Shown piece by piece: positions 16,505 through 37,055 of a DNA stretch of 39,469 nucleotides. This stretch comes from Candidatus Gastranaerophilales bacterium. GTDB taxonomy: Bacteria > Cyanobacteriota > Vampirovibrionia > Gastranaerophilales > Gastranaerophilaceae. The stretch is from NCBI GenBank assembly GCA_944324835.1, contig CALUXV010000013.1, positions 1-39,469 on the forward strand, in the 5' to 3' direction. Every line of letters starts with the position of its first letter. The stretch's first letter is position 1. A program made the translations under genes and the position numbers. The notes under the pieces were generated by a model. It did not search any database and was not told where the DNA came from. It saw only the letters and a program-made list of their open reading frames with translations.

Positions 16505-16591
16505 TTCTCATTGTACTTATCTATACAGATAAAATTATACAATTTACAGACACTTTTGCCCTGATATTATTTGGAGATAATTATTTCATAA

Positions 16592-16608
16592 ATGTAACGC
16601 AATGTTAC
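16592..16608. repeat. Palindrome TGTAAC-n5-GTTACA upstream of the split gene
   Basis: A perfect 6-bp inverted repeat with a 5-nt centre, in the 250-nt AT-rich leader region before the gene at 16755. It could be an operator for that gene. No protein can be assigned. Confidence 0.35.
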
Positions 16609-16754
16609 AACAATAGATTGTAAATCTTGTAAGCATTAATATAATGTATTATTATAATTTACATAGTAAATTAATAATTTACTTAATCTTATATTTGTAT
16701 TATATCATTTTGTTTTATGAAAATGCAAATTATTAACAATAAAAAGGAGGAGTT

Positions 16755-17378
16755 ATGATATTGGGATTTAACGATTATACAAAACAAAGACTGGATGAGG
16801 ATGTTTGGAAGTTTCAAAATTATTTTAAATTTTATCAATCAAATACGTACGGACTGAATGATGAATTAGATGCGTTTAGGATGGCATATATATCATCATA
16901 TATTGCATACAAATATGGTGATAAGATTGCTAAAAAGCAATTTGAAAACGATTTAAAGATGAATCCGGAATACAATAATGAAACATTAAGAGAAGCATCA
17001 ATGAAGATTTGGAATGCACGTGTCGGAAGAGAAATTGCAAAAGATTTGAAAAAATTTACAAAAGGTAAAAACTTAAACGAAAATCAAATAAAATCTATAC
17101 TTGCATACTCAATTTCTGAAAAATTATATGAGGGCAAAATGGTTACATCATTGAATGATAACAAAAATTATGACGATTTTGATGAAATATATTTTGATAA
17201 ACCGCAATCTATAGAACAACCGTCAAATAAAACTCTTGAAGGGGAAATTGAACAAAATGTAATACAAAATGATAATAAACAGTTTATAAATTCAAGTACA
17301 AATTCTCAATATGAATATATAAAAACACCATGTGTAGGTTCTTATGAAGTATCAGGATATACCAGAAAGGACGGTTGA
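16755..17378 (+). CDS. N-terminal part of a split hypothetical gene (GYTRKDG family)
   Basis: A 207-residue frame with a strong Shine-Dalgarno (AAGGAGG). It is soluble and charged, with two helical stretches (FRMAYISSYIAYKYGDKIAKKQF and NENQIKSILAYSISEKLYEG) and an acidic Asn/Gln-rich linker. It ends CVGSYEVSGYTRKDG and then meets TGA at the left end of a palindromic element. In related proteins the motif continues as DGTxVxxYxRT; here that continuation (SKEVDDYIRTCGVKH) appears beyond the element in another frame. I read this as one gene broken by an 82-nt insertion. The function is unknown, and a truncated product is probably still made. Confidence 0.65.
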   Translation: MILGFNDYTKQRLDEDVWKFQNYFKFYQSNTYGLNDELDAFRMAYISSYIAYKYGDKIAKKQFENDLKMNPEYNNETLREASMKIWNARVGREIAKDLKKFTKGKNLNENQIKSILAYSISEKLYEGKMVTSLNDNKNYDDFDEIYFDKPQSIEQPSNKTLEGEIEQNVIQNDNKQFINSSTNSQYEYIKTPCVGSYEVSGYTRKDG

Positions 17379-17461
17379 ATTTTCGGTAGGGCGACGACAC
17401 GTAGTGGCTAGCCCGTAACGTGGAGCAAAACCACGCTTTTGCGACCAGCCGAATAATTCAA
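17376..17461. mobile_element. GC-rich palindromic element inserted in a coding gene
   Basis: The ends TTGAATT-TTCGG (from 17375) and CCGAA-TAATTCAA (to about 17461) are inverted repeats with one extra base. The inside folds further: GGGC/GCCC enclosing CAC-gta-GTG, and CGTGG/CCACG, with an alternative GCAAAA/TTTTGC pairing. About 52% of its bases are G or C in a region near 25%. The coding frame shifts by +1 across it; removing 82 nt (17376-17457) rejoins the motif as GYTRKDG-SKEVDDYIRTCG. There is no transposase. It resembles RPE- or REP-like elements in design only. Confidence 0.65.
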
Positions 17462-17541
17462 AAGAAGTAGATGATTATATAAGGACTTGCGGAGTAAAAC
17501 ATATTCGAAAAGTAAAGAAAAAATCGACAGCAGATAATTAT

Positions 17542-18267
17542 ATGGATAAAAATGTAGCGATTCAACAACCATTAGAACATATATCATCTGTAAAAAATAA
17601 TGATATCGGATATAAGCAAATTAAGAATATACATAATTTGTCAAATAATAATACAATATTTAGTTCTCCTTGGAATACACCTTATAATATAACATCAGAT
17701 AAAAATATTTTTGAGATACAAACTTTTTTATCAGAGATAAATAACAATGTAAATAAAAACAATAAAAATGCTAAACTATTAATGAACATATCAATATATA
17801 GTCCTAAATTTTATGAAAAATCTAAGGATTTTAAATATTTAAATTATGATAATGTAAAAGAGATTTCAGATAAAATAAAAGTTGAAACAATAGAAAAACT
17901 TGATGGAGTATATTTTGATGAAACAAGTGCATTAGCTCAAAGTATTATTAACTCAAAAGAATTTATAAATGAAATACAAAAAGAAAAATTAAATAACTTT
18001 AAAAATCAAAAAATACAAATATCATTTAATACAAATGAAGATTTATTTAGAGGATTACATAACGTAACCGTATGTAATTTACATATGGATAAAAAAGGTT
18101 ATACTCATGGAATAATTTATGATAAATTTGATTTTGTTTTTTTATTAAAAGAATTATTTACTAAGCATGACTTTATTACATTTGCGAATAATATTGCATA
18201 TTTATTACAACAGCAAAATATTATAAAAAAATACTATATATTTATTAAATTTAAAAAAAAGTTATAA
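17542..18267 (+). CDS. C-terminal part of the split hypothetical gene
   Basis: A frame of 241 residues from the ATG at 17542. It is open further upstream to 17419, where it encodes SKEVDDYIRTCGVKH, the expected continuation of the GYTRKDG motif in the preceding frame. No Shine-Dalgarno precedes 17542. The protein is Lys/Asn/Ile-rich and ends in a compact alpha/beta part (VTVCNLHMDKKGYTHGIIYD, then FVFLLKELFTKHDFITFANN). I do not recognise a family. Without reading through the element it is probably not translated, which makes this a disrupted gene remnant. Confidence 0.55.
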   Translation: MDKNVAIQQPLEHISSVKNNDIGYKQIKNIHNLSNNNTIFSSPWNTPYNITSDKNIFEIQTFLSEINNNVNKNNKNAKLLMNISIYSPKFYEKSKDFKYLNYDNVKEISDKIKVETIEKLDGVYFDETSALAQSIINSKEFINEIQKEKLNNFKNQKIQISFNTNEDLFRGLHNVTVCNLHMDKKGYTHGIIYDKFDFVFLLKELFTKHDFITFANNIAYLLQQQNIIKKYYIFIKFKKKL

Positions 18268-18290
18268 AGTTATGTTAGTATAATTATATT

Positions 18291-18782
18291 ATGTTATTAA
18301 ACATTGTATACAATTTATTATTATCGATTCCAATAATAATGTCAGGAGTATTTTTATTTTTCAAAAATATAAAAACTCCTGACAAATTTAATCCATTGAA
18401 TTTAATTTTTACCGTAGGTTTTGTTAATTTATTTATTATCTGGGTAATATTTTATATTTATCATTGTTATGTTAATACGACAATATATCAATTACATCAA
18501 ATAGAAAATCCTGCATCAGTACCATTGGGGTTTGGCGGCTTTTTGGTGCTATTTCCAATACCTTATTTTTTTCTTATAAATGGAATATTATTTTTTTCAT
18601 ATTTACTTTCAAAAAATTTATTTTTATTAATAATTCATTCTTGTATTTTTATTTTTTCACTTTGTTGTATTTTTATTATTACAATAAATAGTGTAAATAT
18701 TTATAATTCAATAAATCTTTTGTGTATGTATATTTGGTTATTTATATCGTTTTCTTTTGTATACAAATTTGTAAAAAAATAA
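18291..18782 (+). CDS. Hypothetical multi-pass membrane protein
   Basis: A 163-residue, very hydrophobic protein with about five membrane helices: residues 3-23, 37-58, 80-102, 110-132 and 140-159. A GFGGFLVLFPIPYFF segment lies in the middle helix. The coding sequence is extremely AT-rich and there is no good Shine-Dalgarno. I do not recognise a family. It lies 23 nt after the split gene on the same strand and could share its transcript. Confidence 0.5.
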   Translation: MLLNIVYNLLLSIPIIMSGVFLFFKNIKTPDKFNPLNLIFTVGFVNLFIIWVIFYIYHCYVNTTIYQLHQIENPASVPLGFGGFLVLFPIPYFFLINGILFFSYLLSKNLFLLIIHSCIFIFSLCCIFIITINSVNIYNSINLLCMYIWLFISFSFVYKFVKK

Positions 18783-18828
18783 TGTATCCCGATAAAAATA
18801 ATGATGAACAAAAATAATTAATAATTAT

Positions 18829-19020
18829 TTAGAAAATTTTTAAATAAAAAATGGTAATACAACTTGAAATTAAAAAGCTAACAAATCCTGTAATCCAAAA
18901 AATATTATATACAGGATTTGTTAGTATAAATTTGTTTGTTATTTTAAAGTGAAATAATGTAATCATTTCAATAATAAAAACACCTGCAATTACAAATAAT
19001 AAGAAATAGTTTGCAATCAT
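18829..19020 (-). CDS. Small two-span membrane protein
   Basis: A 63-residue hydrophobic protein with two membrane helices (about 4-22 and 38-60). Its ATG overlaps the stop of the upstream gene by 4 nt (ATGA), so the two are probably coupled. Family unknown. An accessory, very AT-rich context. Confidence 0.4.
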   Translation of the reverse strand: MIANYFLLFVIAGVFIIEMITLFHFKITNKFILTNPVYNIFWITGFVSFLISSCITIFYLKIF

Positions 19021-19226
19021 ATAAAAAAACCTAATATTACAATAGCAGCAAAAAAATTATCTAATATATCAATTATATGATTTGGTTCACAAAAAATACA
19101 GCCTAGCATAATATAAACTATATAGACCAATAATGAAATATTTGTTCCCCAAGCTAATACATGTGTCCACCACATGGATTTTAGAGATGTAAATAATTTA
19201 CAAAATTTGATAAAAATTTTTTTCAT
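19017..19226 (-). CDS. Small two-span membrane protein
   Basis: A 69-residue protein with a basic start (MKKIFIKFCKLF), a WWTH motif and two hydrophobic spans (about 23-43 and 51-68). It is upstream of, and overlaps, the small membrane gene at 18829-19020. The pair could be parts of one broken four-span gene or a genuine two-gene unit. I do not recognise it. Confidence 0.4.
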   Translation of the reverse strand: MKKIFIKFCKLFTSLKSMWWTHVLAWGTNISLLVYIVYIMLGCIFCEPNHIIDILDNFFAAIVILGFFI

Positions 19227-19324
19227 ATTATATATTATAGCATAATATATTGTAATATTATAATATATTTACGTTTAATTAACTACAGTTTTTATCTCAA
19301 CGAATAATTGATATGAAATATAAT

Positions 19325-19432
19325 TTATAAGTTTTTATAAACAAAATCCTCAAAATCGTTATAATCCTTTTTAAATGTATCTAATTTTTCAGTAAGTATA
19401 TAAACTGATGGGTTTATATGTTTATATTTTTG
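19325..19432 (-). pseudogene. Possible gene remnant downstream of kdsC
   Basis: The 275-nt gap between kdsC and the small membrane genes holds a minus-strand frame of about 36 codons ending NPSVYILTEKLDTFKKDYND-FEDFVYKNL before a TAA. It looks protein-like but has no start codon, being preceded by two TGA codons. A decayed C-terminus is the simplest reading. Nothing else is evident in the gap. Confidence 0.25.
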
Positions 19433-19501
19433 TCATCAATATTATTAACGTAATAACTTAAGATATCGCCCAGTGATTTAACCAAGCAAATATCTGATAA
19501 T

Positions 19502-20038
19502 TTATTTTAAAGATTCTCGTTGCTTTTTTCTGACAATTTCAAGCGGTTCAATACTTTGAGATTTAAGAATAAAATCGCATAATTCTCTGACAGCACCTCT
19601 ACCGCCATTATATTTAGATTTGAATTTACATACTTTTTTAACTTCTCTGACGGCATCTTTAGGACAGCAAGGCAGACCAACCTGCTCCAGTATACAAATA
19701 TCAGGAAGGTCGTCTCCCATATATGCAACATTTTCAAATGTAAGATTATATTTTTTTAAGATTTCTTCGAGTATCGGAAGTTTAAATTTTACTCCCTGAT
19801 GTAATTCTTTTATTCCGAGATTTTTTGCTCTGTGTTCTACTGTTCCGTTTTTGCGGGCTGTAATAATAACTGTTATAAATTCCGCATTATTAAGGCATAC
19901 GATTCCTTGACCGTCTTTTGCGTTAAATGTTTTGTACTCTTTTCCATCTTCTGAGAATGTAAGACTTCCGTCCGTCAGTACTCCGTCAACATCAAGAGCA
20001 AGAACTTTAATATTTTTTGCAATTTCTTTCAGGTTCAT
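19502..20038 (-). CDS. kdsC: 3-deoxy-D-manno-octulosonate 8-phosphate phosphatase KdsC
   Basis: KdsC dephosphorylates KDO-8-phosphate on the way to lipopolysaccharide. The 178-residue HAD-family protein has the C0-type motif LALDVDGVLTDGSLTF with nucleophile Asp16 and Asp18, FNAKDGQGI, TARK as motif II, and MGDDLPDICIL as motif III. Length and the lack of a cap domain fit the tetrameric KdsC form. Its start overlaps the kdsD stop by one base, so the two KDO steps are encoded together. The gene pair implies an LPS-type outer membrane. Confidence 0.95.
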   Translation of the reverse strand: MNLKEIAKNIKVLALDVDGVLTDGSLTFSEDGKEYKTFNAKDGQGIVCLNNAEFITVIITARKNGTVEHRAKNLGIKELHQGVKFKLPILEEILKKYNLTFENVAYMGDDLPDICILEQVGLPCCPKDAVREVKKVCKFKSKYNGGRGAVRELCDFILKSQSIEPLEIVRKKQRESLK

Positions 20039-36563: not shown

Positions 36564-36590
36564 AAGTAAAAATTAAATAATAAATAAAAT

Positions 36591-36710
36591 GTTTTCTAGG
36601 GTTCCGCAATCAATAATTGGTCTGGTCCGAGAGAAAACACACAAGTTAGTCTTGTGAACACGGAAGGATAAAAGCCCGGGAGATAATTAATAAATATCTC
36701 CCGGGTTATT
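36591..36710 (+). ncRNA. Guanidine-I (ykkC) riboswitch with terminator
   Basis: The conserved pieces of the ykkC class occur in order: CTAGGGTTCCG, GGTCTGGTCCGAGAG, a variable hairpin CACAAG/CTTGTG, then ACACGGAAGGATAAAAGCCCGGGAGA. The final GGGAGATA is shared with an 11-bp terminator stem CCCGGGAGATA/TATCTCCCGGG (36675-36685, 36695-36705) followed by a T-rich run. Guanidinium binding is known to stabilise the aptamer and let transcription proceed. The downstream gene is a guanidinium exporter, as expected. Confidence 0.93.
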
Positions 36711-36737: not shown

Positions 36738-37055
36738 ATGAAATGGATTATTTTACTTATTGCAGGAATTTTTGAAATCAGCTGGGCCGTCGGATTAAAA
36801 TTTTCGCACGGTTTTTCAATATTAATACCGTCTGTAATCACTGTAATATGTATGATTTTAAGTTTTTATTTCTTAGCATTAGCATTAAAAAGTCTACCAC
36901 TGGGAACTGCATATGCAATTTGGACAGGAATAGGAACTTTAGGTACTGTTATATTTGGAATAATTCTTTTTAAAGAACCAATAACAGCAATGAGATTATT
37001 ATGTATTGGTTTAATATTAAGCGGTATAACCGGTTTAAAATTAATAACACATTAA
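36738..37055 (+). CDS. gdx: Guanidinium exporter Gdx (SugE-type small multidrug resistance protein)
   Basis: A 105-residue, four-helix SMR protein that works as an antiparallel dimer and exchanges guanidinium for protons. The key Glu13 lies in AGIFEISWAVGLK, with Trp16 and Lys21; GLK and WAVGLK separate Gdx/SugE from EmrE. GTAYAIWTGIGTLGTVIFG and LFKEPIT are also present. It lies directly under a guanidine-I riboswitch, which confirms the substrate by established linkage. AAAGGA precedes the ATG. Confidence 0.95.
   Translation: MKWIILLIAGIFEISWAVGLKFSHGFSILIPSVITVICMILSFYFLALALKSLPLGTAYAIWTGIGTLGTVIFGIILFKEPITAMRLLCIGLILSGITGLKLITH

Follow-up and report, generated by a model that had tools for sequence, protein, structure and literature searches.

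How a gene came to be split by a short palindrome, and whether it still yields a functional product, are the questions raised by a stretch of 39,469 nucleotides (hereafter the window) that is located on contig C13 of a 1.98-Mb genome in 97 contigs. The upstream piece of the gene (16755..17378, + strand) is an open reading frame of 207 amino acids (P0001) with the C-terminal residues SGYTRKDG, which ends with a stop codon at GGT TGA. The downstream piece (17462..18267, + strand) is an open frame that begins about 80 nt past the upstream one with SKEVDDYIRTCG and has no obvious start codon of its own, an ATG being present at 17542. When read from position 17458, this frame continues for 269 codons without a stop, its first residues being SKEVDDYIRTCGVKH. 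Queries of the host gene against Pfam and PHROG gave no match above the cut-off. The palindrome resides between the two pieces, directly 3' of GACGG and within the codons for GYTRKDG. We consider it very probable that a short non-autonomous mobile repeat, which resembles REP and MITE sequences and has spread through the Gastranaerophilales family, was inserted at this position and disrupted the gene.

Uninterrupted homologues and the island carrying the gene

An initial annotation of the region had proposed that a small non-autonomous element was inserted into a coding gene, and this proposal is supported both by uninterrupted homologues and by the dispersed family to which the element belongs. 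Searches with the upstream piece identified the uninterrupted form of the joined protein in two species of the same genus, with lengths of 518 aa (G003) and 543 aa (G002) and with both halves present. Identity to the first part of the intact proteins is 84% (G003) and 79% (G002) for the upstream half, and the downstream piece matches the C-terminal part of the G003 protein at 43% identity. Past the residues KQIKN, the C-termini of the intact homologues diverge between species. Since these same-genus homologues lack the interruption, the element in the window is to be regarded as an insertion. At the position of the element the intact homologues carry GATGGTAC, the insertion point (marked here and below by a slash) being GATGG/TAC. 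The junction reads GATGGTACTGAAGTAG and GATGGTACAGAGGTAG in the homologues, and GACGG[87 nt]AAGAAGTAG in the window. Compared to the empty site GATGGTACTGAAGTAG, the window has thus gained a net 85 nt (87 nt in, with TACN changed to AA), so that its downstream half no longer shares the upstream reading frame. This comparison indicates that the element was added and that two bases were lost on its right side. Removal of 82 nt, by which the two frames had initially been rejoined, indeed restores the frame, but this length was an arbitrary choice among options and leaves one extra codon behind. A reading of the window gene as a chimera, with two gene types fused at the motif, was rejected on account of the uninterrupted 518-aa and 543-aa homologues.

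While the whole gene does exist, its homologues occupy other chromosomal places and not the orthologous locus, because the gene is carried on an island of about 3 kb (16505..19505, no strand assigned) that was inserted after rnhB. This island lies between rnhB and a HAD-hydrolase gene, with TTTATTTTAA at each edge. Elsewhere in the genus (seven genomes), rnhB lies close to the HAD-hydrolase gene and the island is missing from this place. As judged from the homologue and island comparisons together, the element is an insertion within a gene of a mobile island. Segments related to the island were found elsewhere in G003 and G002.

A dispersed family of palindromic elements

Rather than being unique, the palindrome belongs to a large dispersed family with copies also elsewhere in the window's genome, where they were found on contig C72 (at the same kind of motif), 3' of the stop codon of rpsK (a gene named by its C-terminal sequence rather than by family search) and as fragments. 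A covariance model built from 11 copies had matches in 88 of the 146 genomes of the Gastranaerophilales family and in 32 of its 41 genera, with up to 28 copies per genome; 7 of the 8 genomes of the window's genus carry it. In a sample of 292 genomes from the phylum, matches were confined to the same family except for one genome from another family of the same order, with E-values calculated per single genome and strict filters that miss weak matches. Among the matches listed by a pattern search of public genomes, most were to MAGs titled Candidatus Gastranaerophilales or Melainabacteria, some titles lacking an informative taxon; among viral contigs, a single record was matched. No match was obtained to the ribozymes, introns or riboswitches of Rfam at gathering or permissive thresholds, and a literature search, outside which most subscription journals fell, found no relevant account of palindromic or repeat elements in Gastranaerophilales or Melainabacteria. 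We place the element, as a new family, among the small non-autonomous palindromic repeats in a broad sense.

Copies range from 74 to 100 bp in length and some are in tandem, as in the arrays at L069, L072 and L196, which have a unit of about 96 bp. Many are intergenic, beside tRNAs or within other repeats, and most of the copies examined do not interrupt a reading frame. Some other copies can be read openly, mainly in antisense. Several copies from other genera (L035, L065-L068, L077, L078, L136, L157, L171) are open in antisense, are located directly before the prepilin motif FTLAEVLITLGI and have flanks in common. In G008, the copies L033 and L052-L063 lie within a second dispersed repeat, GTCATTGCGAG...CGAAGCAATCC, and have apparently spread with it as a composite. 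A variant copy is found directly 3' of the rpsK stop codon at the same place in two species (L003, L016), and its outer stem shows compensating changes relative to other copies.

A three-stem fold supported by covariation

The element in the window is 87 bp long with 52% GC, which agrees with the GC-rich palindrome described initially; its bounds are shifted by one base, from 17376-17461 to 17375..17461 (+ strand), the boundary being taken from the empty sites L203 and L204. The covariance-model match covers 17373-17461 with 103.8 bits and an E-value of about 5e-26, a score that is inflated by the presence of this copy in the model. A DNA search independent of the model found copies elsewhere that are 83-94% identical.

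The outer stem P1 is formed by a left arm (TTGAATTTTCGG, 17375..17386, + strand) and a right arm (CCGAATAATTCAA, 17449..17461, + strand), and its outermost pairs covary between UA, CG and AU among copies. In the window copy it reads TTGAATTTTCGG / CCGAA-T-AATTCAA with a single bulged T in the right arm; the consensus is GGATTTTCGG / CCGAA-U-AATCC, and the bulged U is conserved. P2 (GGGC...GCCC, 17389..17417, + strand) has a variable apical hairpin and shows two-sided changes (GC/UA, CG/UA). P3 (GCAAAA-CCACGC-TTTTGC plus its base, 17423..17445, + strand) shows a GC/CG swap at pair 2, and all six of its pairs change two-sidedly in the wider set. The consensus thus proceeds from the outer stem through UA, P2 with its variable tip, GUAA and P3 back to the outer stem. 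In the window's genus, a possible pseudoknot (GTGG:CCAC) would overlap P3; its pairing is disrupted in two or three of the 11 copies.

The single-sequence fold of the window copy is only modestly better than that of shuffled sequences (z of -1.6). Among 66 distinct rows, 93% of the cells are paired and 20 of the 26 pairs show two-sided changes. The covariation score of this alignment, which was fitted to the model and is thereby biased in favour of structure, was 0.342, whereas shuffles scored 0.133 +/- 0.006 and slid structures did not exceed 0.116. The first alignment, of 11 rows and built without structure, agrees with this result. The three-stem fold is therefore supported well beyond chance by covariation among copies.

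Mode and sites of insertion

To obtain pairs of filled and empty sites, the flanks of copies were joined by script and searched against all loci collected. Many pairs were found, mostly without clear target duplication (L172/L195, L034/L100, L037/L133, L199/L125). The inserted unit of the commonest subfamily is GCGGATTTTCGG...CCGAATAATCCAAGAC, often followed by A. Examples of empty sites are GAGA/GGGAAG (L172/L195), CTGCGGG/GAGGGCAG (L037/L133) and TGAATTT/ATTTCAGG (L199/L125). Long target duplications were restricted to the 3' ends of some genes and tRNAs. At L004, L017 and L018, the complete 3' end of a gene and a second copy of that end flank the right half of the element, and at L015, L011, L012 and L029, copies lie beside duplicated tRNA 3' ends, the tRNA being whole. 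Both at L004, L017 and L018 and at the tRNA-Pro and tRNA-Gly sites (identified by reading the sequence), the targets look like they were kept whole or rebuilt.

In the window's genus, six copies of 87 or 89 nt (the window copy, L002, L007, L009, L010 and L014) are located at the GAYGG^TAC spot, in hosts of several gene types that share a GYTRxDG(T)KV motif. That all six are found at GAYGG^ in differing genes sharing so short a motif raises the possibility that not all are independent insertions, and that the element was passed from gene to gene by recombination through the shared motif DNA. The half-elements between intact and duplicated 3' ends at L004, L017 and L018 would fit such a process, as would the G021 copies, which lie near prepilin genes and have both flanks in common. 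However, the filled and empty pairs reveal insertion at many unrelated sites, so that the family is able to move without shared motif DNA. We therefore lean against recombination as the source of some motif copies, while taking it seriously. A region of G003 (C1:400000-430000; L019, L020) combines phage-like genes with several paralogues containing SYTRSDGTKVSGYYRRKG or a GYxREDGTKVDSYWRTCG motif, some of them interrupted by the element and others whole.

Relation to known repeats and candidate mobilising enzymes

Rickettsia RPEs, to which the element was likened initially, are short, palindromic, multi-copy elements of about 150 bp that occur inside protein-coding genes and are inserted in frame (PMC10969869). 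The likeness, drawn by description, holds for size and for location in coding DNA but not for the reading frame: the window copy leaves no forward frame open, and most of the copies examined are outside interrupted frames. Because the frame is not kept, we do not class the element as an RPE. MITEs are short, dispersed, have terminal inverted repeats and no ORF, and can inactivate genes (PMC10969869). The element is MITE-like in its length, its non-coding nature, its TIR-like outer stem, its copy number and the disruption of a gene. It differs from MITEs in that a clear target-site duplication is lacking, for which reason it is not a classical MITE. In six genomes searched for a longer relative, no left and right ends were spaced further apart than in a short copy, except for two far pairs (G109 C1, G008 C18) in which the right end is that of another short copy.

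Folded hairpins, absence of target duplication and occasional tandem arrangement are shared with REP sequences. REP and BIME sequences are moved by RAYTs, transposases of the IS200/IS605-type Y1 group, and are folded into hairpins with a short head sequence, make no target duplication and are sometimes in tandem. Whereas a REP or BIME comprises one or two short hairpins, the element has three conserved stems in a unit of about 90 nt, and no link to RAYT genes was found. Since it was not adjacent to the RAYT genes examined, it is not classed as a RAYT-moved REP.

Given its fold and the absence of a clear target duplication, the element may move by a single-strand, hairpin-based mechanism, in which the moving agent would act in trans on folded DNA. 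A RAYT (TnpA-REP) or another Y1 single-strand transposase could be this agent, in which case the element would be of REP type. Besides the hairpins and the lack of a clear target duplication, GTAG or GTAA precedes the two inner hairpins, and Y1 genes of RAYT size are present in 50 of the 146 genomes, including the window's genome. Nevertheless, there was no model match around the RAYT genes examined (G000, G003, G135, G065, G098, G041), the association of Y1 genes with the element was not significant (35/53/15/43; odds ratio 1.9, p = 0.11), and 7 of the 14 genomes having at least 10 copies gave no Y1 match. This makes a Y1 mover rather unlikely. More speculative still is a new class of tiny mobile element, moved by an enzyme of these gut bacteria, whose three-stem fold would be recognised as DNA or RNA, which would prefer GAYGG^TAC motif DNA and the 3' ends of genes and tRNAs, and whose intact targets would sometimes be rebuilt by 3'-end duplication.

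Fate of the interrupted gene

The initial annotation stated that the element stops all three forward frames, and this is indeed the case, the sole open frame being one reverse frame (entry L202). It left a choice between a broken gene and processing at the RNA level. The former is favoured, and the latter is not supported by the junctions. The element, inserted 3' of GACGG where the island-borne gene encodes GYTRKDG, brings in a TGA directly past GGT, at which translation of the upstream half would now end. Most likely, as far as can be read from the sequence, the gene is inactive or cut down to its first 207 residues. That the downstream half has stayed open would fit a recent insertion, and this half may alternatively be translated separately as a second protein, for which its 269 open codons would be suited.

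Removal of the element from the transcript, as a minimal self-splicing or host-processed intervening RNA, would keep the gene functional. The paired ends and the conserved, covarying three-stem fold are compatible with this, as are the recurrence of the element at the same codons and the open downstream frame in the window and several copies. However, the junctions differ by small indels, so that, of the six motif copies, only L007, L009 and L010 would return to frame upon excision with fixed boundaries, while the window copy, L002 and L014 would not. Moreover, L009 is frameshifted upstream of the element and L010 has a stop soon after it. Such lesions on opposite sides of the element are as expected of broken genes, and favour the view that some interrupted copies are decaying. 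RNA removal is also at odds with the many copies that are intergenic, beside tRNAs or within other repeats, with the lack of an Rfam ribozyme or intron match and, more weakly, with the G-U pairs, which at 17 of about 1,461 cells are few for an RNA-level fold. We therefore regard it as highly improbable. Hardly credible at all is a hop of ribosomes across the insert, of the kind known from phage T4 gene 60 and the byp elements of yeast mitochondria. Although GGT at the edge is immediately followed by the stop codon and the insert can form a hairpin, the window has no matching GGT landing codon within 50 nt past the element, junction frames differ among copies, and most of the copies examined are outside any interrupted frame. 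The TGA brought in, the frame failures, the lesions in L009 and L010 and the lack of a GGT landing codon thus together favour a broken gene.

The element family is a means by which genes are disrupted in this gut lineage, which is abundant, mostly uncultured and a relative of the cyanobacteria. The covariance-supported model allows its annotation, and the empty and filled sites provide a means to seek the mobilising enzyme.

Lastly, the window contains a Guanidine-I riboswitch (36585-36684, + strand, 86 bits), which is located directly 5' of a gene for a transporter of the small multidrug resistance family (36738-37055).
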